From Psococerastis gibbosa (lineage: Eukaryota > Arthropoda > Insecta > Psocodea > Psocidae): 64,000 nucleotides of DNA. Made by a program: the position numbers and the translations under genes. A model generated the notes under the pieces. The model searched no databases. It was given only the letters and a program-made list of their open reading frames with translations, and was not told the DNA's origin. Where the stretch lies: the NCBI GenBank assembly GCA_963971405.1, contig OZ020486.1, positions 37,223,419 to 37,287,418 of the forward strand. Direction: 5' to 3'. This document shows, piece after piece, positions 6,760 to 57,600 of the stretch (positions are counted from its first letter, which is position 1; each line of letters opens with the position of its first letter).

Positions 6760-6899
6760 GGCGGGGTTTCCACATACGTCAATGGTCAATGAGAAATATG
6801 GTTTTGACGTGGTAGCAGAATTTTTAGTATGTCTTTAATGTCTGCTAAAACGTCAATTTCACATTTCTCATTGACCATTGACGTATGTGGAAACCCCCC
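6760..6899. mobile_element. Palindromic MITE Z, copy 2
   Basis: 140 bp with long inverted arms (GGCGGGGTTTCCACATACGT and inverse) and the GACGTGGTAGCAGA core, then TTTTTAGTATGTCTTTAATG. The flanks are TAA and TTA. Confidence 0.9.
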
Positions 6900-17134: not shown

Positions 17135-17275
17135 GAGGCAATGGTTTGGCAAGAGCACGACTTCCCTTTTCTGAGCCGCCAAGGTTCAAATTGCCATGAT
17201 TATCGCCAATTTTCGTTAGAAGAGGCATCAAAAAGAGAAGAAACATTCTACATGATTTAATTTTTAATCATTATT

Positions 17276-18106
17276 GCTTTCCAATTTATACGTAGTATAA
17301 GGAAAGCTTTGTGACGGTCCAAATTTTCGATTCCGATATTTCAACGGATTTAAACGTTTTAAGGTCCCAGGAACCCAAAAAAGTGTTTTTTACGAAATGT
17401 CTGTCTGTCTGTCTGTCTGTCTGTTCGTTGATTTCCGGGCAAACAGCTCGGTCGATTTTGTTGAAATTCGCCATGTAGGTTCAAAATAATACCTCGGGAC
17501 CATTTTTTTTATTTGGGGCTAACTCAATTTGGGAGGGGGGGGGGGGGGTTTATTCTCAAAAAACTCCAAAGAAAAACGTCTAAAAAAATTATTTCCCGAA
17601 AATGGCTCCAACGATTTCTTTTAAATTCGCATATATTGTAGTTGTTATTAATGTTTATAAAATGCGGGGGGTCACTTGCTCCTTGATAGTTTGCTTCGGG
17701 GGGGTAAAAAAATTTTTTAATGAAAAATGACTAAAAAATAATTTTTCTGCGAAACCTTTCTATCGATGATTTCTACCTTCAGGTATGTTTTAGGTGTTAA
17801 ATTGAGTAACGAAACCAGAAAAGTATTTGGTTTTGTAAAAAAAATGTTTTTTTGAAAAAATGATAGAAAATTCACGCTCAAATGCATTGCGTGCCCTGCC
17901 AGTATTGCTGTGTGGTAATGTGTTGGTCTGACCTATCTTGAATTTACCTCACCTCCAGTGACGTCAGGTGGACCCCCCCCCCCCCCCCCGAGATATCGGA
18001 AATTTAACCACAGGAAAATTATTTACCATGAAATTACTCATTTTCTCTATCTACTAATTTTGAAAAATTGGAAAGCATGTTCGAGTAAACTCGGACCGGT
18101 TCTTTT
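17276..18106 (+). repeat. Repeat B, copy 1, with (GTCT)n block
   Basis: About 830 bp bounded by GCTTTCCAATTTATACGTAG and AATTGGAAAGCATGTTCGAG, then ACTCGGACCGGTTCTTTT. Internal markers: AGGTCCCAGGAACCCAAAAA, a (GTCT)n tract at 17399, GGGGGTCACTTGCTCCTTGA and GACGTCAGGTGGA, then a C-run. The partly inverse ends (GCTTTCCAATTT and AATTGGAAAGC) suggest a mobile unit. No long ORF. Confidence 0.85.
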
Positions 18107-19058
18107 GGTATGGTTCTCGACGCTTATTACAGACATTGGAGGAGAATCGCGCGCTTTGGAGGGGTTTGGCGCGACAGGCGAGAGGTCCTCACGGGCCGAT
18201 GGAGCCACCTTAAGTAAGTAGGTAAGTTAGTATTACAGACTCTATTAGGTATTTAGAAGGGATTGAGTGTTTCCTGAATCCACTCCATTAATATTTCAAA
18301 AACTCCCTTTCGGCTATGGCCGATTAGGTGTAGGGAGATTCCAAGCAAGCGCAGACCCCGCCTTTCCTCTATGTTACCTACTCTATGTACATATGCAATA
18401 AAAAATATAAAAAATCCTTCATTATTTTCCCGACCACAGCATCGAGGCACAAAACACTCTTGTGTTCCAAATTTCGAACCACAATGAGGACTATGAACTT
18501 TTAATTAAGTATCGCATTATTCTCACTTTGAATGGATGCCATCTTGAAATCGTTGATTTGTCGTAAAAAGTGTTGATATTTATTATCGTAAACCATAGTA
18601 CGGGTTTTCGGTCATATTTTAATTTATTCCTCTGCGACTAATATATTAACTGAGCCATACATTTTATAAGGTTTCAATCGGCCACCATCTTGGAACAAAA
18701 TGGCAGATCCATCTGGTTACCAAACTTAATAATAATAATAATAATAACAATTCGTATATTTTCTAAATGTCTAATATAATATGATCAAGACTATTTGTAT
18801 GATCAATAGTGAATCCATTTTTTTGTAAAAAACTGAATTCCGGATTTTCGGAATTACAGGAGATGAAATCCGGAATTCCGGTTTAATTCCGGAATTATTA
18901 TAGAAGAATTTAAAAAATATAAAGAAAAGAAAGTACATTATTTTTTAACATAAATGTATTTAGTTCAAAACAATAAAATTAAAACAAATTACAAAATAAG
19001 GAAATATTTCATATTAAAATATTTTTGAACTACATAAATAAAATTGCAAAATGAAAGT

Positions 19059-21005
19059 TCAATTTTCATTTTGATTTTTGAAAAAGCTTCTTAAAAAGCA
19101 CAAAGTATCCAATGTTTTGTCGTTGAGCCTTGATCGAATTTTTGTTGAAAATGCTCCTGCAGCGGAAAAAGCGCGCTCTGACTCCACACTAGTTGGTGGA
19201 ATTGTTAATAAACTTTTGTAAAGATCTTCCAAAAGCGGTCCGCGGGATCCCCCTTCATCCCAAAATTTCATTTCACTGCGAATTTCGGAATGAATCGATG
19301 ATTTTTGTAGAACTTTTGACCGTGATTCCGAGAGTGATTCGTTTATCTTTTGCTGAAGAATTTGCTGCAAGGATAACTGAGTTTCCAATGATTCGATAGG
19401 TTTATCGTCATCCATTTCAGTAGACTCAGATACTGTCGGGTCTATTTCTAATGCTACTTCACCATTAAGTCTCTGGATTAGGGATATGATAATTTTGTTA
19501 ATTTCAGTTTTCGAGCGACGCAAAATGTTCTTGTGAATTTTGGTTTTACCCCCATTATGCAAATATTGAAGAACATCAGATACGACAGTTCTTCTTCGAT
19601 TAATTTGAACTTCCAACTCTTTTTTCATTTCACGGCCAATTTCTTCATTCTCATCAAAATTTTCTAACACAAACGTAAATGTTGCATCCGCAGAAAGTAA
19701 ATTTGCATCAGCACGGCATAACGCGTCTACGGCTAATTTTATAGGCATCAAATTTCTAGAAACTGTAGATATTATATTCCATTCTGAATCATTCAAAAAT
19801 GTATCCGCTTTGATATCAATTATTGCCTTTTTTATTGAACTTTTCAAAAGATTAAAACGTTCTAACATGGACATCAGGCTACTCCATCTAGTCTTCGAAT
19901 CAAGCAATAGCTGCAATTCCTTTCCATGATCTTCCTTCACATGTTTTTGCAACACTTCATTTTTTAAAGGGGAACGTCGAAACACTCGAACAATTACCCG
20001 AACTTTCATGATTACATTTCGCAATGTAAACTTTTCAGTAATTTCTACATCACATTCATTTCTCGTCCCCACTTGCATTCCTTCATCATCACTTAAATCT
20101 TCTTCATCAGAGTCCAGATCTAGGACACTCTCATAATCATCTTCATCTACCTCTTTCTCTGTTTGTTTGTAGATCACATTTACAATTGCAATCTGAATTG
20201 CATGAGCAAAACACAAAATTTGTTCACATGGTAATAATCTACCCACTTTTTGCATCATAGAAGCACCATCAGTTACAATACACGAAATATCGTTCCTTAT
20301 ATTTAACTGAAATGATTCTAACTTGTCCTCTAACAATTTTACACAATTTTCAGACGCAAATCGACCATTAATTCGAGAAAGACCCAAATTCCAGATATTT
20401 TTCGACCCATGAACGTTAACATTCATATAACGTCTATTTCGAGAGGACGTCCACTCGTCCAATGTTAGACTAAAGCATAAATTCTTTTTTAATTGATTAA
20501 TTTCAGCAATTTGCAATTGTTTAATTTTTTTACTATAATCCATCACGACTTTCTGTATGCTGGTGGGTGATTTTGGAATATCACCGAATCCACGCATTGT
20601 TAAACATTTTCTTAAATCGTTTGACGTACAAAAAACACGAAACGGTAAACCATCAGAAGCAATCATTCTAGCTACTACGGCAGGAAAAGTTTCATCTTTT
20701 TTTGACTTGAAAAAATCAATGATCGTGTTCGTTTTTCTGGTTGTGCTCACAACACTATCGTTACTGTCAGATGTAGAAGCTGTTGTATTTTCATCAAACT
20801 TTCGCTTGCTCAAAACTGTGTTGTGTTTAGAACGAAGATGTGTGTGCATGGGAGTTGTACATCCACCCAATATCTTTAAAACTTGCTTGCATTGCATGCA
20901 TTTCGCCACCTGATTTGTTTTCCCTCGTAGAAAATATTTCCACACTGAATTTGATGAGCTTTCTTTTGAAATGTCCATAAAAGTTTCTTCAGATTTATCT
21001 ACCAT
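19059..21005 (-). CDS. hAT transposase, intact ORF of about 648 residues
   Basis: Cut-and-paste transposase. I take the Met at 21005 (MVDKSEETF) as the start. The reading frame stays open upstream to 21266, but those 87 codons are encoded by the repetitive terminal region and are probably 5'UTR. A BED zinc finger lies near residues 21-66 (VWKYFL, CMQC, then HLRSKH). Further on are LTLDEW with the first catalytic Asp, CIVTDGASMM with the second Asp, and CFAHAIQ, the usual C-x2-H-like insertion neighbour. The C-terminus holds the hAT dimerisation block with the catalytic Glu in SVESERAFSAAG, then SRLNDKTLDTLCFL. An acidic insert (DEEDLSDDEG) follows the CFAHAIQ region. There are no frameshifts or stops, so recent activity is plausible. 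Neither end is truncated relative to family expectations. Confidence 0.93.
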   Translation of the reverse strand: MVDKSEETFMDISKESSSNSVWKYFLRGKTNQVAKCMQCKQVLKILGGCTTPMHTHLRSKHNTVLSKRKFDENTTASTSDSNDSVVSTTRKTNTIIDFFKSKKDETFPAVVARMIASDGLPFRVFCTSNDLRKCLTMRGFGDIPKSPTSIQKVVMDYSKKIKQLQIAEINQLKKNLCFSLTLDEWTSSRNRRYMNVNVHGSKNIWNLGLSRINGRFASENCVKLLEDKLESFQLNIRNDISCIVTDGASMMQKVGRLLPCEQILCFAHAIQIAIVNVIYKQTEKEVDEDDYESVLDLDSDEEDLSDDEGMQVGTRNECDVEITEKFTLRNVIMKVRVIVRVFRRSPLKNEVLQKHVKEDHGKELQLLLDSKTRWSSLMSMLERFNLLKSSIKKAIIDIKADTFLNDSEWNIISTVSRNLMPIKLAVDALCRADANLLSADATFTFVLENFDENEEIGREMKKELEVQINRRRTVVSDVLQYLHNGGKTKIHKNILRRSKTEINKIIISLIQRLNGEVALEIDPTVSESTEMDDDKPIESLETQLSLQQILQQKINESLSESRSKVLQKSSIHSEIRSEMKFWDEGGSRGPLLEDLYKSLLTIPPTSVESERAFSAAGAFSTKIRSRLNDKTLDTLCFLRSFFKNQNEN

Positions 21006-21082
21006 ACTTGGGTTGGGATTTAAAAAAATAACAATGTAAGTACACAATGCTGCCACAATGAAAGTACACAATGACACAATGC

Positions 21083-21330
21083 TGCCACAATGAAAGTACA
21101 CAATGCTGCCATCTATAGTAAAAGTTCTTCTAAATTCGAAAAATCCGGAATTTACGTTTTTGAATTCCGGTAGCCTACTAAAATTTAAATTATGAATTAT
21201 GAAATATGAATTTATAACAATGAAAGTACACAATGCTGCCACAATGAAAGTACACAATGCTGCCATCTATAGTAAAAGTTCTTCTAAATTCGAAAAATCC
21301 GGAATTTACGTTTTTGAATTCCGGATTTTT
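21083..21330. repeat. Subterminal 154-bp-period duplication inside the hAT element
   Basis: A block containing ACACAATGCTGCCATCTATA and the following TTCTTCTAAATTCGAAAAAT stretch occurs at about 21097-21175 and again at about 21251-21328, nearly identical. Shorter ACAATGAAAGTACACAATG units repeat between and before them (21052-21110). It lies upstream of the transposase start. Confidence 0.9.
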
Positions 21331-22389: not shown

Positions 22390-22985
22390 AGCTGCATCAT
22401 ATAGAAGGAACCATAGAAAGCGTCAACCGACCTGGGCACCCAAGAAAAGAATATCTAAAGGCGCCCATTCCATTGACCGGCTAGGGCTATTTCTAAAAAC
22501 AGTGACGTGGTAGCAGACATTCAAGACTTAGGCGGGGTTTCCATCGATCTCGCATTGCAGATTGCAAATGACATTGACGGAAATGTTTGTTTTTCTTTTT
22601 ATAGAAATCTATTAAAATGTTTGTAATTAACATATCCCATGAAGCCATTTTTTAATTTTAGTTTGTTTGTTTGTGATTTTACTGTATGATCATTGATCAA
22701 TTTTAACTATGGCATAGAGGAAAATAAACATTTCCGTCAATTTGCAATGCGAGGTCGGTGGAAACGCCACCTAAGTCTTGAATGTCTGCTACCACGTCAC
22801 CGTTTTTGGAAATAGCCCTAGCCGGTCAATGGAATGGGCACCAAAGCGAGTGATGGAGGATGTGAGTACATAAGAGGGCGTGCCAGGATCGAGGGGTGTG
22901 ATGGAGGCATCGATGCCACATGTTGCTACCAACCAGCCAGCCGGCTGTAACATGAAGAAGAAGAAGAAGTACCGAGATCTGATTA
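22390..22985 (+). pseudogene. LINE 3' end, split by a MITE, with (GAA)n tail
   Basis: 22390-22459 reads in the style of a LINE C-terminus (HHIEGTIESVNRPGHPRK). It continues after the MITE at 22843 with DGGCEYIRGRARIEGCDGG and PASRL, then ATGAAGAAGAAGAAGAAG. The part 22850-22971 is homologous, inverted, to 27750-27863. The join across the MITE is inferred. Confidence 0.6.
22460..22842. mobile_element. Palindromic MITE W with nested Y
   Basis: The outer arms GGCGCCCATTCCATTGACCG and inverse (ending GGAATGGGCACC) differ from X. The inner arm GTGACGTGGTAGCAGACATT and the centre TTA/TAA with Y (inverse orientation) are the same as in X. It is inserted in a LINE tail, with AAA on both sides. Confidence 0.88.
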
Positions 22986-26682: not shown

Positions 26683-27188
26683 TATGCAGATGGCTGGGAT
26701 GGATGAGATGGCTGGGAGACATAGTCCGGTTCATAAAAGTGCAACGCATAAGAAGGCTGGGAGACATAGTCCGGTTCATAAAAAAGCAACGCATGAGATG
26801 GCTGGGAGCCATAGTCCGGTTCATAAAAGTGCAACGCATGAGATGGCTGGGAGCCATAGTCCGGTTCATAAAAGTGCAACGCATGAGATGGCTGGAAGAC
26901 ATAGTCCGGCTCATAGAAGTGCAACGCATAAGATGGCTGGGACACGTCATAAGAATGGCAGACGACCGCATGCCGAAAAAGACGTGCAAAGCAAGCATGA
27001 GAGGAAGACGACTGACTGGATGTCCTCGAAAACGCTGGGAGGATGAATTGGAAACTGACCTTCACGAGTTGGGAGTCCGTAGATGGTGGAGTGTTGTACA
27101 AAACCGAGATGACTGGTGGAGTGTTGTCGAACAGGCCAAAGCTCATCAAGGGCTGTTGAGCCAGAAGTAGAAAAAGAAGAAGAAGAAG
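26683..27188 (+). pseudogene. LINE ORF C-terminus with expanded internal repeat and (GAA)n tail
   Basis: The frame ending at TAG 27168-27170 reads IRWLGHVIRMADDRMPKK, then GRRLTGCPRKRWEDELETDL and DWWSVVEQAKAHQG, the standard tail of a non-LTR retrotransposon polymerase. Upstream, the WLGHVIRM segment is replaced by five tandem 45-bp units. After the stop comes AAAAAGAAGAAGAAGAAG, a typical LINE 3' end. 5' truncated. Confidence 0.85.
26710..26939. repeat. 45-bp tandem repeat, about five units, in frame
   Basis: Units start at 26710, 26755, 26800, 26845 and 26890, and the array runs into unique LINE sequence at 26935. Each is 45 bp (15 codons) and reads approximately WLGDIVRFIKVQRMR. Units differ by a few substitutions, such as GAGACATAG versus GAGCCATAG. 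Confidence 0.95.
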
Positions 27189-29322: not shown

Positions 29323-29445
29323 GGCGCTTATTCCACCAACGTCAATAGTGATAGTAAATGTAGTATTAAATTAAAGTCCAAAATTGTCTGCTACCACGTC
29401 AATACTACATTTACTATCACTATTGACGTTGGTGAAATAAGCGCC
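29323..29445. mobile_element. Palindromic MITE, GGCGCTTATTCCACC type
   Basis: 123 bp, almost entirely two arms: GGCGCTTATTCCACCAACGT through AGTAAATGTAGTATT and inverse. The loop has TGTCTGCTACCACGTCAA, the inverse of the core seen in W, X and Z. Confidence 0.88.
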
Positions 29446-30865: not shown

Positions 30866-31015
30866 AACCCCGGGATGAACAAAACCAAACAGGTTTCATA
30901 AACCAAATTTAGTTTTGAACAAATAATTATTTTTTGAAAAAATTAATGAATAATTCATGCCCCAATACATTGCGTAGCATACCCTGCCACTATTACCGTC
31001 TTGTTGCTTTCCAAT

Positions 31016-31806
31016 TTATACGTAGTATAAGGAAAGCTTTGTGATACACGTTTTGAGGTCCCAGGAACCCAAAAAGAGGTTTTTACGAAATGTCGCTCTG
31101 TCTGTCTGTCTGTTCATCAATTTCCGGGCAAACTACTCGGTGGATTTGTGTGAAATTGGACATGTAGGTTCATAAAAATCATACCTCGAGTCTAATTTTT
31201 ATTTTGGGCTAACTCAATTTGGGGGGTTTTATTTTCAAAAAACTCCCAAAAAACGTCTAAAAAAATTATTTATTCAAAATGGCTCCAACGATTTCTTTTA
31301 AATTAACATATATTGTAGTTGTTATTATTGTTGACGAAATGCGGGGGGTCACTTGCCCCTTGATAGTTTGCTTCTGGGAGTAAAAAAATAAAAATAACTC
31401 AATTTTAATGAAAAATGACTAAAAAATAATTTTTCTGCGAAACCTATCTTGATTTCTACCTTCAGGCATGTTTTTGGTGTTAAATTGAGTAACGAAACCG
31501 GACAGATTGCTTTCCCAAAAAACTATTTGGTTTTGTGCAAAAAAATTTTTTTTAAAAAATGAAATCAAATTCACGCTGAAATGCATTGCGTGCCCTGCCA
31601 TTATTGCTGTGTGGTAATGTGTTGGTCTGTCCTATCTAGAATTTACGTCACCTCCAGTGACGTCAGGTGAACGACCCCCCCCCCCCCCCCCCGTGATATC
31701 CGAAATTTAACCATAGGAAAATTATTTGACATGAAATTAATCATTTTCTCTCCCTACTAATTCATAAATTGGAAAGCATGTTCGAGTTAACTCGGACCGG
31801 TTCTTT
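31016..31806 (+). repeat. Repeat B, copy 2
   Basis: Collinear with copy 1: GCTTTCCAATTTATACGTAG, (GTCT)n at 31091, TCACTTGCCCCTTGATAGTT, GACGTCAGGTGAACGA then a C-run of about 18, and AATTGGAAAGCATGTTCGAG. Preceded by a truncated piece (30880-31014) of the same family. Confidence 0.85.
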
Positions 31807-34572: not shown

Positions 34573-34967
34573 GGCAGGGATTCCACAGACCTGCAAGTGC
34601 AAAATACAAATACGGTGACGAGGTAGCTGACAGTCAAGACTCAGGTGGGGTTTCCACCGACCTCTCATTGCAGAATGGAAATGACACTGACGTAAATTTT
34701 TATTTTACTCTATGCCATAGTTAAAATTGATCAATGATCATAGAGTAAAATCACAAACAAACAAACTAAAATTAAAAAATGGCGTCATGGGATATGTTAA
34801 GTACAAACATTTTAATAGATTTCTATAAAAAGAAAAATTCAAATTTCTGTCAATGTCATTTGCATTCTGCAATGCGAGATCGGTGGAAACCCCGCCTAAG
34901 TCTTGAATGTCGACTACCACGTCACCGTATTTGTGTTTTGCACTTGCAGGTCTGTGGAATCCCCGCC
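34573..34967. mobile_element. Palindromic MITE X with nested Y, copy 2
   Basis: 395 bp, flanked by TAT on both sides (34570-34572, 34968-34970). It has the same X arms and same central Y as 2370-2907 but lacks Z. The second unit of the flanking tandem duplication (35139-35165) preserves a related empty site, CATATACGCGGTATACGCAG. Confidence 0.9.
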
Positions 34968-35329: not shown

Positions 35330-36046
35330 AAATAAAAAACAGACTTACACCGAATGGGTTTAGTAGGCATTTAGCAGATATGACACCCTATATTTGGGGG
35401 CAGGCATCACATAGCCTAACAGTTCTACAGTTCTAATTTCTTGTGATATGGGACGCCTTCTATTTTATTAACGCTGGGCCTACTGTATTATACTGCAAGG
35501 GCGTATTTATAGGGGAGGCAGGAGGTCAAATGCTCCTCTGACCAACGAAGTGATTATGGAAATTATTTGCAAAATTTCAATATCTAGCCTATATGGAAGA
35601 AATGTGTACACATTCAGAAAAATAAAGAAATTATTATTATTATTATTTAAAGATTATTATATTGTTTTGTGTGACTACTTAGGCTATTTCGTTAAATATT
35701 GTATAGGGTAGAGCTCTTGCGGGACTTTGGCTCATTGGGTACTGTTCTTTCCTATATAACCGGTTCTATACAAAAAAATTAAATAGGTAATGAACATAGC
35801 ACATCCATATGGCTACCTAATTTTCATAGTGCATTCGTATTTTACAGGTACCTAATAGCCTGTAAGCCGTTCGTTACAAAGTTGATTGTAATCAATTCTG
35901 TGGTTTTATTATTTGGCATGGGCTGTGTGGCTCTTCTAACAGATCTAAATCTGGTTACTTCAAAATTTAGCTCAGCTGCAAATAAAGGTTACCGACCCCT
36001 GGCATAGAACATAAATAATTATTGTTTGATGTCTGACGCAGAGTAC
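35330..36046. other. No gene seen
   Basis: AT-rich, (ATT)n at 35634. 35509-35545 resembles a degraded G-run element. No coding signal. Confidence 0.5.
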
Positions 36047-36932
36047 AAAAGACCCGGTCCGAGTTTACTCGAACATGCTTTCCAATTTATCAAGTAGTAG
36101 CTAGAGAAAATGAGTAATTTCATGGTAAATAATTTTCCTATAGTTAAATTTCCGATATCTCGGGAGGGGGGGGGGGTTGTCCACCAGACGTCACTGGAGG
36201 TGAGGTAAATTCTAGATAGGTCAGACCAACAAATTACCACACAGCAATAATGGCAAGGCGCGCAATGCATTTGACCGTGAATTTTCTATCATTTTTTCAA
36301 AAACATTTTTTTTGCACAAAACCAAATAGTTTTTTGGGAAAGCAATGTGTCCCGTTTCGTTACTCAATTTAACACCTAAAACGTGCCTGAAGGTAGAAAT
36401 CATCGATGGAAAGGTTTCACAGAAAAATTATTTTTTAGTCATTTTTCATTAAAATTTAGTTATTTTTATTTTTTTACCCCCAGAAGCAAACCATCAAGGG
36501 GCAAGCGACCCCTCGCATTTTGTCAAAAATAATAACGACTACAATATATGTGAATTTAAAAGAAATCGTTGGAGCCATTTTGGATAAATAATTTTTTTAG
36601 ACGTTTTTTTGGAGTTTTTTGAAAATAAACCCCCCCAAATTGACATAGCCCAAAATAAAAATGAAAGTCCCGAGGTATGATTTTTGTGAACTTATGTGCC
36701 AAATTTCATCAAAATCGACTGAGTAGTTTGCCCGGAAATCGTAGAACAGACAGACAGACAGGCAGAGCGACTGACAGAGCGATAGAGCGACAGACAGACA
36801 GACATTTCGTATTAACCACTTTATTGGGTTCCTGGGACCTCAAAACGTGTAAATCCGTCGAAATCTCGGAATCGAAAATTTCGACCATCACAAAGCTTTC
36901 CTTATAGCCTACTACGTATAAATTGGAAAGCA
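36047..36932 (-). repeat. Repeat B, copy 3
   Basis: Inverse copy: GACCCGGTCCGAGTTTACTC at 36051, GACGTCACTGGAGG, AAGGGGCAAGCGACCCCTCG, (CAGA)n at 36745 and ACGTATAAATTGGAAAGC at the end. Confidence 0.85.
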
Positions 36933-37032
36933 ATAATATAGCCTATACATTAGGAACGATAAATGTAGCTAGAGAACTTGTGGTTGTACCTATTACTGTA
37001 CAGTTGCAGTTGAATTGAAGATTGATCAGTGC

Positions 37033-37672: not shown

Positions 37673-37740
37673 CATCGGGGTTGAACACCCTTTAATAATC
37701 ATTTACCAAGAATATATGCAACGAAGTGCAACAAAAAAAA

Positions 37741-38612
37741 GAACCGGTCCGAGTTTACTCGAACTTGCTTTCCAATTTATCAACATTAGTAGATAGAGAA
37801 TATGAGTAATTTAATGGTAAATAATTTTCCAGTGGTTAAATTTCCGATATCTCGGGGGGGGGGGGGAGGGGGGGGAGGGGGGGGGGGTTGTCCACCTGAC
37901 GTCACTGGAAGTGAGTTAAATTCTAGATAGGTCAGACCAACACATTAATTACCTCACAGAAATAATGGCAGGGCACGCGATGCATTTGAGCGCGAAGTTT
38001 CTATCATTTTTTCAAAAAATAATTTTTTGTGCCAAACCAAATATTGTTTTGGGAAAGCAACCTATCCGGTTTCGTTACTCAATTTAACACCTAAAACATG
38101 CCTGAAGGTAGAAATCATCGATAGAAAGGTTTCGCAGAAAAATTATTTTTTAGTCATTTTTCATTAAATTTTTTTTTTTTTACCCCCAGAAGCAAACCAT
38201 CAAGGGGCAAGCGACCCCCGCATTTTGTCAACATTAATAACGACTACAATGTGTGTGAATTTAAAAGAAATCGTTGGAGCCGTTTTTAAGAAATAATTTA
38301 TTTAGACGTTTTTTATGAGTTTTTTGAAAATGACCTCCCCCCCCCCAAATGAGTTAGCCCAAAATAAAAAAATAAACATTCCAAGGTATGATTTTTGTGA
38401 ACCTACATGCCGAATTTTATAAAAATTGACCGAGTAGTTTGCCCGGAAATCGATGCACAGACAGACAGCAGACGGACAGACAGGCAGACATTTCGTAAAA
38501 ACCACTTTTTTGGGTTCCTGGTACCTCAAAACGTGTAAATCCATTGAAATCACGGAATCGAAAATTTCGACCGTCACAAAGCTTTCCTTATACTACGTAT
38601 AAATTGGAAAGC
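37741..38612 (-). repeat. Repeat B, copy 4
   Basis: Inverse copy, same markers as copy 3, with a long interrupted G-run at 37855-37888 and (CAGA)n near 38457. Same orientation as copy 3, from which it is separated by 0.8 kb. Confidence 0.85.
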
Positions 38613-38619
38613 AATAACC

Positions 38620-45600: not shown

Positions 45601-48600
45601 ATCGCACTGCTGCAGTTGCAACCCTAAGTTACATAAGGCGGCCATCTTGCCGCAGAAGTATGTTACGTCGGCCATTAATGTAACAGCCACGCTTTAACAA
45701 TTGTATTGTTTGATCATCGTGCCCGAGGGGGAGGCAGATACTCACGGCTCAACAGATTGTTGTACTAATAATCGTCGATCAAGGGTGTTCCGGGATCACC
45801 CGATTAGATTGACGATTTTCCTCCAGCAGCCCTACTATATGCCGCAGATTAACTTAGCACCGGAAATGGGAATAAATAAACCACAACTGGTTCATTTAAT
45901 TTAAACAAAAGCGTACAAAATGCGCGGGAATTTCAAATTAACTAATTGCTCCTCGGTTATATTTTTGTTGTTTAAATTTTTCGTCCCTTAGATTTAGACA
46001 AATTGGTTACGGTATAATTCTTAATGGATTCCAAAATGTAAACCTGTACATTTTAATGCGTATTTGTATTTCGTTCAATAAAACTATGCGATCATATTCT
46101 TGAATTCCAATAATTTATTAATTAGAATTTCTCGCGTTTCTCTCTTTTGTTTAACCCAAATACCTCAATAATTGGGATTTATTTAATCCTATTTCCAGTG
46201 TCAATCCTTAATTGGCATAAGTAGTAGGGCTGCTGAAATAAAAATATTGAAATAAATCTAATTAATATTGAAGTATATTGAGTGGTTTTGCCGAAATCAC
46301 TCGTTTCTTAAGCAAATTGAGTCAATAAATACCTACGTCTAATAATATGCATGATGCGGACAAATAGCCTATACACGGATAGTGTTGATTTGCATGTAGT
46401 AAGTAACGGCCAAGAATTCTTTCAGTTACGGTCCATTTAGCAATTGGAGAAACAAACATAACATGGCTCAAAGTAACATTAGTAACACAGTAATACAACG
46501 GTACTAGGCCTATTGTAATTTTGTAGCCGAAATGCTAATTGTGAATTGTTAACTTATAAGAAATATTTTCAATATACAGCATCTTTGTATTTTCTCAGAA
46601 ATTTGAACATCGTGTCATCAGGATGAATACTTTTTTTTTGTATCACTTGGGTAGAAGTAGGCTACCTATTCTAACCTAAGCTCAATGATATCAAATAACT
46701 CTGTATTAATTTATTTCAAGATCAATTCATGGTCGTTGAAATGTGGTCAGATAGCTATTAAAGCATGCTAATAATGCAAGCACTGGCTCAAAAACTTGAA
46801 ATGACGTCAGGTTTAAGACATAATATTGCAGTATTTCCATTTCTAACTCGCTTTTAAAGTAAAGTAAAGTAAAGTAAAGTAAATTTTATTTATCGAGGAA
46901 TACATTCTACATACATTTCATTAGTGGTTCAGAGGGGCACCTTTGGGAATTCCCGTGATGGGCCCCTCGACCTAATAGATAACATTTATATTAAAACTTA
47001 TTCTAAACACTTAATCTACAATAAAAAATAAATTCTTTTAAAATTGTGTTACAAAACAATTAACTTCAGACGATTAACAGCGCTTACATTTTTTCTAAAA
47101 CAATCTTTTGCTAGACATGAAAAATATATCTTTTTTGCACATAATAAATATATTATAGTTATAGCTGGGGCCCAGCACCTTTTTAATATTGCTTTTAACA
47201 GGGCAACAGCAGAGGAATTCGTTACTTCTTTTACCCTAAATTCTGTTGTTGGTAACCGAAGTTAATTAAATTATGCAGTACTACCCCAACCACGATAAGA
47301 CATAAAACACTTTATAAATTTCGAATAACCACGTAGTTCCGTTTATGTAAGTTTTTGAATAAACAATGTGTTCCAAGTGCTTAGGCGGGTATTCCACATA
47401 CGTCAATCGTCATTTAAAAATTGAAAAATGACGTAACAATGACGTAAATTGACGTGGTTCAGAATTTTTAGTATGTCTTTAATGTCTGCTAAAACGTCAT
47501 TTTTCAATTTTTCATTGACGATTGACGTATGTGGAATACCCGCCTTATCGTGGTCGGGTAGTACCAGAGCGTAAATCTCGATATGTGAAGCTAGCCTAGA
47601 AACTACACGAAGCTGCAGACACTAGCAGCCATGCTAGTTAAAATATTTAAATGGAATGTAATTTTGTCAATTATTAATCTTATCTAAACCTATTTTTCAA
47701 AAAAGGCACGCAAAGGCTACTTTTATTTTACAATATAGTTGAAAATGGGTGGAACCGTTAAGGGAAATTACAAGTTAGGTACCCTAAGTGTAATTTACGG
47801 CGCTTAATGGGAGGACATTAAACACAGAGTAAGGGGGCAACATAACAGCGGAAGATGGGATAGTCTGTGGCTTCCCTATTAGGATATGACTCGACACAAC
47901 ACGAACCACTTTCGTTCTTTACAACTACTTATGTATACCTAGAGTACGACACAAAAAGTTAATTGTGTTCTAAGAGTAGTTTGGTGTAAAAATATACATG
48001 GACTATGACTGGGCATGACTTGCATAGATGCGCTCAGACGCGGCAACAGACGCGGCATCATTTTTATGCATATGCAGTGTTGACAGATTATTTATTTATT
48101 AACCAAGGTTCACATCCTTGTCACCTTTCGCTTTTTATGTTCATGCTAATGATTTGTCGAATTTCTCCAGCAATTTTCTCCCTATCATAGAGACTCTATG
48201 TTATAGTAATGTGTAATTTTCTGTGGTTTAATCGGCGTTCTGGCGCCTCTAACGTTGTATCAGGCAATTAATGCATTGTGAGCCACAATTGCAGTTAATG
48301 TGACATAACGGCTTCCACAATAACAGATATTTGACGTGGGGATTTAAAACATACAACAAATATTTATTGTATTGAAAATAAATAAATTCCATTACATAGG
48401 TAGACCCAACTACATACAGTATAAATTCTATTCTCTTCCGCCAATGCGGTTAATACAATAATGTAAGTACAATATACAATTTTTGGCTACATTATACTAT
48501 ACTGTATACAAATTAGCCTAATAAAAAATAAAAAATTGTAATGATTAACAAAAATTAGTGATATCAACCGTGTTTCTGTCCGCTATAGATAACTTATGTA

Positions 48601-54600: not shown

Positions 54601-57600
54601 TCTTCCAAATTGTCCAGTTATCTGGGCTTTTCTTGAACTAAATGCTTCGTCCGTCTATGTCTGTTTCACGTTGGTATTGCATATGCATAATAATCTCTTT
54701 CGCGCATCTGATTCTTAGCTTAGTGGTGCTCTTTGCTGCTTCTAGGCCAGCGGTTCCCAATCTTTTTGTCGTCAGCCACGACCACCTTTTGGGTCAAAAG
54801 AAGAAATATGGGTCGGGAAAACATGGGTATATGCATTGTTTGCTTTTATTTTGCCTGTCTCCTTTCAATGGCTTGACAAAGACAAAGTAATTTGTAACTA
54901 ATATTGTTGGCAGATATTTTTACACTTTTTTTATTTGGAAACACTGGGCAAAGGTTAGAAAGTTAACTAAGTGATTCATTCCATAGGGCGGTCGCCCCCC
55001 CCCCCCCCCCCCCGAGAAAAATAGCTTTATACTAGATAGAATGGACTTTTGAAGGAAATGAAGAGAAATTGTTACTCAAGTAAGGGAAACGCGATATTTT
55101 TCAGGTCACCCCCCCCCCCGAAAACTTTTTCTGAAACCGTCCCTGTACAAGGACCTACGAACAAACTATACCACTATGCCATTGAAGTCGCACAAACTTT
55201 TAAAGGATCAACGTTAATGAACCTTTTTAACGCGAAGTGCTTTGGTTGTGATAGAATCTTTCTTACGGTTTTTATTTTCTTTCGTTTTAGGATGGCTCTC
55301 TCGCTTGTGGTGACGGAATTTGTATCGAGAGAGGGCTCTTCTGTAATGGAGAGAAAGACTGCACTGACGGATCCGATGAAAATTCTTGCGGTAAGTTTAA
55401 ATATTTCAGGATTCGTTTTTTTTATGATTTTAGGAATCAAAATTTTTTAGAGCGCATCTGCCATAAGATCAGCGGAAGTATTGGAAATGTTGTGTCTACA
55501 TAAGTATTAGCTTTGAGTTTATCCCGTACAGGTACAGTTCTAACAGTACCTAATTTAGTTTAACGCTGGTTTTCCTGCCATTACTGCGTCACAATACCGG
55601 CATGATTTTCAAGCCTGATTTTCAATGCTTCGATGAACTGAACAATTAATTCAATGCCATCTTGTCAAAAAACTTGCAGTGCATCTAGACGAGGTCGCGC
55701 CTTAATGGCGATCTTAGCTTCCTGCAAGCCTCTACTTACCGGTCAGCCGCAGGGTGGAGTTTATGCTATTATTAATAATTTTATGCGTAGTAGGCTATAG
55801 GTAAAGCTTTGTGATGGTTACAATTTTAGATTTGGATTTTGAAATGGATTTTCACGTTTTGGGGTCCCAGGAACCCCCAAAAGTGGTTTTACGAAGTGTT
55901 CGTCGATTTCTGGGCAAACCACTCTGTGAATTTTCTTGAAATTAGGCAGATATGTTCACAAACGTCATGTCTCAGGAAAAATGATTTGTTTTGGGCTAAC
56001 TCAACTTTGGGGGGGTTTTACTGAAAAAAAAAAAAAAACAAATAAACGTCAATAAATTTTTTCTCAAAAACGGTTTCAACCATTTCTTTTTAAATTGACA
56101 CATGTTGTAGTCGCTATTAATATCAACAAAGCCTACTAGGTCACTTGCCATTGATAGTTCGGTTCTGGGTGCAAAGCTGAAAGTAAAAAAGATACTCAAT
56201 TTCAATAATTTTTTTATGGAACCATTCTATCGATGTTTCCTAAGTCCAGGTATGTTTTAGTTGCTAAATGGAGTAACAAATTCAAGCAAGTTGCTTTCAA
56301 AGCATAGTTTTGGCTTTGAATATAAATGTTTTTTTTTAAATTGTGCATAATTTTGAATGGAATAATATTTACGTGCCGATATTACCATCGATATTACCAT
56401 CATGGAAACATGAAAAAAATTGGTTCTAATACAATTCGACGTTCATGAATATAACTTTGAAGGATGTGTTGACCTTGACCTCATTGAAAAATGAACTAAG
56501 TCAGTTAATGAGAAGCACTACCCTTATTCAGATCTAATATAAAGAAATGTGTCAAATCATATAAAAATACCCAGCAGTAGCGGACTTTAAGAAATTATTG
56601 GGTCTAATATTTTATAAGTTTCTGCGAAGTCAAAATACACGTAAGAGTACAGTAGTCTAAGTTCTGAAATGAGTGAGTTTACCCAGAATAATCAGGGAGT
56701 TTAAAATGAACGTACAAAATTTGTCTACTAGTCTACAGGTTGGTATTCAAATTATGAAAGCTCGAGCTGTAGGTATTATTTATTATTAAATTATTGTTCA
56801 GGCCACTCCCCCTGCAGTTGTTAAAAAAAATACAACATTGACCCTCCCTGACTAACGAGGAAATTGTTACAACCTAGTTTAAATTTGCACCTAATTGTCA
56901 GATGGACCCCTCCTGAACAAAATTTCTAGCTACAGCTTTGATCTTGGCCCCCTGAAAAATTTTTAAAACACGTCCCCTGCTTTGCAAAGCTATTTGAAAA
57001 TATAGAAGCCGTCACCTATGTAGGTACAATATGTTAAACTATAATGTTCTTAACTGAAGATAAAAGGTTATTTATGCAGTCTGCATTATTTATGGATAAA
57101 TTAACGTCAATCAGTTCGATATTACTCAATAGAAATTTTTAGGTGCGGAAAGTGTTGTAGAACCGCCTGTAGGCAAACGTGGGGATAAGGTGTGACGGTA
57201 ACCAACACCATCGTTCGCCAACAATGATTTCAGGGTACCCATAGGTGTCTGATGTATGATCACTAGGCTAAAAAATTGACTTGTTTACCCGTTAATTACT
57301 TTCGTAACTTTAATTGCGGAAGTGTTTATGAATATTTTTGTGGGAATAGTAGTTAGGGAAGTTTCTTTCATGAGTTAGTGACTCGCAAATGTCAAGGGTA
57401 AATAATTGTTTGCTCTCAAAATCCGTTACCTAAAAAAAGCAGTTGCACATCAATTAGTTCGTAACCCATTCGAGGTAATTGGTTCGAGTCCCATTCTTGC
57501 TACATTTTGTGGCCATGCTTCGGAGTGTATGTAAAGCAGACCTTACCTGTTGAGTGTAAGAGGGGTTTTATAGGCCTAACTCTGAAAGGTAGGTTTAGAT

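Follow-up and report, generated by a model that had tools for sequence, protein, structure and literature searches.

Composite miniature transposable elements of Psococerastis gibbosa: one graded PIF/Harbinger-type lineage, probably founded by nesting of one element in its sister

A 64,000-nucleotide stretch of the Psococerastis gibbosa genome (assembly GCA_963971405.1, contig OZ020486.1, positions 37,223,419 to 37,287,418 of the forward strand; hereafter the window) contains composite miniature inverted-repeat transposable elements (MITEs), here called W and X, in which an inner unit, Y, lies between long inverted arms. Our results favor the view that W and X form one lineage of PIF/Harbinger-type MITEs, and that this lineage was probably founded when one MITE inserted into the palindrome centre of a sister element. 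An earlier note on the window had proposed modular assembly, with arms swapped around a common core or new ends recruited by insertion into palindrome centres. The common core, the shared central Y and the long inverted arms that it described in W and X are all real. Except for genome-wide pattern matches, counts of flanks and arms given below refer to the window and 63 further loci (L numbers), of which 30 were taken for their similarity to W, eight as the first pattern matches on one contig, 20 from the list of core matches as apparently unlike W or oddly spaced, and five as random 10-kb stretches (of 80 drawn).

W occupies positions 22460-22842 of the window (383 bp, 3-bp flanks AAA/AAA), and its palindrome arms, 105 nt each, are 92% complementary. 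From the outside inwards it consists of a left outer arm of 44 nt made up of terminus and spacer (22460-22503, plus strand), the left core GACGTGGTAGCAGACA (22504-22519, plus strand), the inner unit Y (22531-22771) with its own termini GGCGGGGTTTCC and GGTGGCGTTTCC and with TTA at the left junction and TAA at the right, the right core (22783-22798, minus strand) and the right outer arm (22799-22842, minus strand). When 40 places in the genome, W included, were scored against W, identity was 97-100% over at least 378 of the 383 bp, these places being the closest of 2,071 first-look candidates. The two X copies have the same composite plan. X1 (2370-2907) carries an inserted Z element (2511-2651, TAT on both sides) that is absent from X2 (34573-34967; 395 bp, flanks TAT/TAT, two core mismatches per arm), which therefore preserves the empty site within the same window. 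The inner-arm 20-mer GACGTGGTAGCAGACATTCA that the earlier note ascribed to W and X alike has no mismatch in either arm of W or X1, and is altered in both arms of X2.

The 16-nt core is not restricted to composite elements. In the genome (409 Mb) its exact sequence is present 13,884 + 14,054 times; when as many as 3 mismatches are allowed, the window holds 11 matches, where shuffles predict 0.19. Simple units of the E, Z, L002 and L058 types combine the same core with other spacers and centres; for the 29323 element (E) and Z the earlier note had already described the shared core. E (29323-29445, flanks TTA/TGA) is a simple unit with a single, exact core copy, and two of the three Z elements (those at 2511 and at 6760-6899) contain the 14-mer GACGTGGTAGCAGA. 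A further listed part of the window lies at 47384-47544. The five random stretches contained one X/W-type and two Z-type elements, located in L040 and L042. At L038 (474-1900) several family MITEs form a nested or adjoining run, with six plus-strand cores in about 900 bp.

Several observations bear on the origin of the composite form. First, Y has termini of its own (GGCG...TTTCCACC); it starts with GGCGGGGTTTCCACC or, in numerous copies, GGTGGC, which is the type of terminus also seen at the outer end. Secondly, of 48 large elements, 41 have Y bounded by TTA and TAA. Thirdly, the outer-arm spacer of X and the spacer of the Y arm are 64% identical, which beats all 500 shuffles, and the Y arm is equally close or slightly closer to the arms of L002 and L038 than to the outer arm of X. 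From these comparisons Y has the look of a MITE in its own right, a sister of the outer unit lodged in the latter's palindrome centre, and one MITE jumping into the middle of its sister is probably what founded the composite. A 30-mer from the inner terminus occurs 3,670 times in the genome, 3,040 times directly behind an exact GACTTA, a share close to that expected from 3% divergence per base over six bases. Since the 30-mer stands mostly behind GACTTA, the composite most likely spread as one piece; additional, separate, near-identical copies of Y may exist.

A number of results weigh against a founding insertion. The inner junction, TTA...TAA, is no direct repeat and leaves no clean duplication for such an event. 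The parent state, an outer unit without Y, went unobserved with the two patterns tried: a joined-centre pattern for the intact empty unit gave no match at up to 3 mismatches, and a second gave one exact gapped match, which keeps TTGGGC and looks like a deletion. Two short-spaced arm pairs, L086 and L087, were rejected as empty outer units, being internal deletions that retain part of Y. Moreover, the outer spacer of W has no detectable likeness to the inner arm, since shuffles did equally well in 178 and 99 of 500 cases, and it looks as if the W arm has drifted further than the X arm from the sister-MITE likeness. An inverted duplication or template switch that copied the terminus inward would produce both the palindrome and the symmetric junction with no insertion at all, and it would agree with the TTA...TAA boundaries, with the relatedness of the inner and outer arms of X and with the missing empty unit; we regard it as possible but unlikely. 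Under the insertion of one MITE into another, a symmetric junction could have arisen through later copying between the two arms, or via inverted duplication. The notion of insertion into palindrome centres thus holds up in respect of Y's own termini, its junctions and the kinship of its arm with that of X, and is not borne out by the symmetric junction and the search for an intact empty outer unit.

The outer ends of W and X, described in the earlier note as unrelated, are related. Their 44-nt outer arms are identical at 30 of 44 positions without a gap, against a mean of 11 for shuffled X arms; put the other way, they differ at 14 positions where 2000 shuffles gave a mean of 33 and a minimum of 23. 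The spacers alone were matched as well in just 2 of 500 shuffles, and BLAST alignments run through the outer ends, pairing 2368-2506 with 22458-22596 (85%) and 2651-2909 with 22458-22717 (89%). Copies elsewhere in the genome have mixed W and X states at the 14 diagnostic arm positions and bridge the two stepwise; in L059, and in L040 from a random stretch, an X-like end is joined to a W-like spacer. An arm pattern allowing only W or X letters at the ambiguous places, so that arms with a third letter go uncounted, has 6,367 + 6,344 matches in the genome (12,711). Among the first 100 of these listed, all on one contig, 34 were W, 43 CACCGACCGG...TTTACAAAAAC, seven ...AAATACAAATAC and two CACCGACCTGCTAGTGC..., and the remaining 14 were one or two letters off those types; none was exactly X, the nearest being two letters away, and the series grades from W towards X.

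Outer-arm and inner distances are also correlated (r = 0.62 over 49 aligned elements, 0 of 2000 permutations as high, shared ancestry being ignored), and several intermediates have inner distances to W and to X that are about equal. Such stepwise combinations of letters and such a correlation are hard to reconcile with W and X as recombinants in which unrelated outer ends were placed around a common core and Y, and we consider arm swapping of this kind very improbable. The graded arm series and the correlation together amount to the single-lineage gradient of arm sequences that the earlier note had itself named as the finding that would speak against its proposal. Judged by these alignments, W and X are one lineage whose members grade into each other. 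Because W-like copies are 97-100% identical and the two X copies 88-95% alike over their parts (BLAST), W would be the younger form and X-like sequence the older state; the order is weakened by the small number of comparisons, since the 40 W-like copies were chosen for closeness and only two X copies were compared.

Tc1/mariner elements of the Stowaway kind duplicate TA on insertion, and hAT and Mutator elements 8 or 9 bp. The 3-bp flanks are identical in 34 of the 59 paired elements (TAA in 16 cases, TTA in nine) and not identical in the other 25, which tells against the assignment made here. Shared flanks of 4, 5, 8 or 9 bp occurred in none of the 59, and hAT and Mutator membership were accordingly rejected. 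Most copies read have GGCG or GGTG termini, with outer ends GGCG...TTCCAC, and W and X have the properties of MITEs in being short (383 bp for W, 395 bp for X2), non-coding and very high in copy number. According to the parts of the source available, PIF/Harbinger elements duplicate TWA and their terminal inverted repeats usually begin with A or G, and ISL2EU elements duplicate a 2-bp AT (PMC4482050). Identical 2-bp flanks were present in just five of the 59 elements, and ISL2EU membership was rejected. A Tc1/mariner origin is extremely unlikely: TA does occur in many flanks, a TA duplication is one possible reading of the inner junction taken by itself, and the TAA/TTA flanks of 7 of the 59 elements might be TA around A...T ends, but identical 2-bp flanks beside GGCG/CGCC are as rare as stated, against 34 with identical 3-bp flanks. 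The 3-bp TWA-like flanks and the termini starting in G fit PIF/Harbinger, and on this basis W and X are non-autonomous PIF/Harbinger-type MITEs.

Where a terminus was found within 160 nt of the core (143 arms; 5 further arms had none), the distance from terminus to core was 42-47 nt in 135 arms, and in 28 of 36 outside the dominant X/W cluster. This count has no shuffle control, and inheritance alone could have kept the spacing, since several arm types and spacers are related; both considerations count against a functional interpretation. The Myb-like protein of Harbinger3_DR is described as binding a 9-bp subterminal motif (PMC9710019), and mobility as requiring two element proteins (PMC9921582, PMC2836001), as far as the available portions of these papers go. 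By analogy, terminus and core are perhaps two predicted contact sites of Harbinger proteins. According to our hypothesis, one MITE would have entered a sister MITE at its palindrome centre, and the outer ends would then have mobilised the composite as a single piece. Terminus and core would stay about 44-46 nt apart because both would be recognised by trans-acting Harbinger proteins (transposase and/or Myb/MADF), leaving the spacer between them free to drift; such recognition would account for the persistence of one core in elements that differ in arms and centres. A further step, that nesting doubled the predicted transposase or Myb/MADF sites, the second site being the core, 44-46 nt inside the terminus, so that the composite became a better substrate and, rather than its parents, took over the genome, is a doubtful extension of this scheme.

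An autonomous partner was sought among the transposase genes of the genome. DDE_Tnp_4 genes are numerous (at least 150 matches, with 150 of 220 candidates scored), and MADF genes gave 113 matches, several of which adjoin DDE_Tnp_4 genes; seven transposase frames that were scanned have DDE_Tnp_4 and HTH_Tnp_4 domains. The loci read cover the smaller part of the transposase places, and around most of these they extend only 1-3 kb. No paired W or X ends lay around the transposase at the eight top-ranking DDE_Tnp_4 loci (L064-L071, with 1.5 kb to either side) or at ten further ones (L072-L081, 4.4-5.5 kb), and four DDE/MADF neighbour pairs (L082-L085) and about 1 kb either side of two more (L090-L093) gave no transposase flanked by W/X ends together with the core. 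Among these pairs, clear ends were seen in L084 only (C2:50587206-50590045), which spans 2.84 kb and has TTA duplications, a terminal repeat of 24 bp (AGCCGCGTCTCCACCAACCGAACA), and MADF and DDE_Tnp_4 reading frames. Its end has a modest likeness to the E terminus, equalled in 20 of 1000 shuffles, and the core is absent from L084 within 4 mismatches. In the loci read there is thus no transposase element with the ends or core of X and W, the transposase frame of L084 contains a stop, and the L084 end is a poor match to five other termini (170-495 of 1000 shuffles as good; W 314, X 170), all of which weigh against the scheme proposed above. At best, L084 would be a relative of the W/X family.

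In all eight of the loci L064-L071 a Z-type MITE lies at the same place (about 770-930 or 2573-2736), some 0.6 kb from the transposase domain. It falls within sequence shared by the copies, so this repeat seems to have spread carrying the MITE.

A start codon and short open stretch, MASWDMLSTNILIDFYKKKN, lies inside the Y of X2 (34779-34838, plus strand) and is weakly MADF-like. Compared with MADF starts, the frame MASWDMLSTNILIDFYKK was equalled by 24, 95 and 748 of 5000 shuffles for L084, L085 and L083, respectively, a weak likeness, and a Pfam scan of the short frame gave no hit. The frame is kept in many copies, and may be a remnant of a gene of the parent element. L094, a single match to a degenerate MADF start continuing the Y frame, was rejected, being surrounded by stops with no convincing MADF gene.

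The accessible parts of the literature place W and X beside known PIF/Harbinger MITEs (Tourist type, rice mPing, and Harbinger3N_DR, which was reconstructed from zebrafish) in their 3-bp TTA/TAA duplication, and likewise in being short, non-coding, of high copy number and with inverted ends starting in G (PMC4482050, PMC2836001). Whereas mPing simply derives from Ping by deletion (PMC2836001), W and X have an additional pair of termini further in, together with a conserved core whose distance from the end is nearly constant. In Medicago truncatula, too, PIF/Harbinger-like elements are non-autonomous and some have nested insertions, but what is nested there are gypsy-like retrotransposons or mosaic pieces, within single elements (PMC2213677), while in the W/X family the nested form itself has been amplified, as the 12,711 arm matches indicate. 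From the same genome, L084 shares with W and X the TTA duplications and a terminal repeat containing TCTCCACCAACC, and differs in lacking the core, in an end that could not be shown to be a W or X end and in the stop noted above. The literature searched, seen in part, contains no description of the self-nested architecture, which is not proof of absence. As to the family, which the earlier note had not settled, the 3-bp TWA flanks indicate PIF/Harbinger.

Other features of the window have no part in this argument. A hAT transposase gene (19059-21266, minus strand) has a 735-aa open frame with a BED finger and a hAT dimerisation domain. A tandem repeat lies at 26703-26945, its open frame repeating RWLG.IVRFIK-like units, and a polysaccharide-deacetylase-like reading frame scores just below the Pfam cut-off; this frame and the hAT transposase would suit an invertebrate animal. 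An unassigned repeat of about 500-900 bp is present at five places on both strands (17270-18107, 31001-31806, 36046-36937, 37737-38617 and 55780-56340; 67-85% alike).

In conclusion, the presented data suggest that what was suspected to be a new transposon architecture resolves into a single PIF/Harbinger MITE lineage whose members form an ordered series, and in which thousands of copies would stem from a self-nested MITE spreading as one unit. The distance between terminus and core, being nearly constant, offers a concrete, testable guess at where Harbinger proteins would bind.
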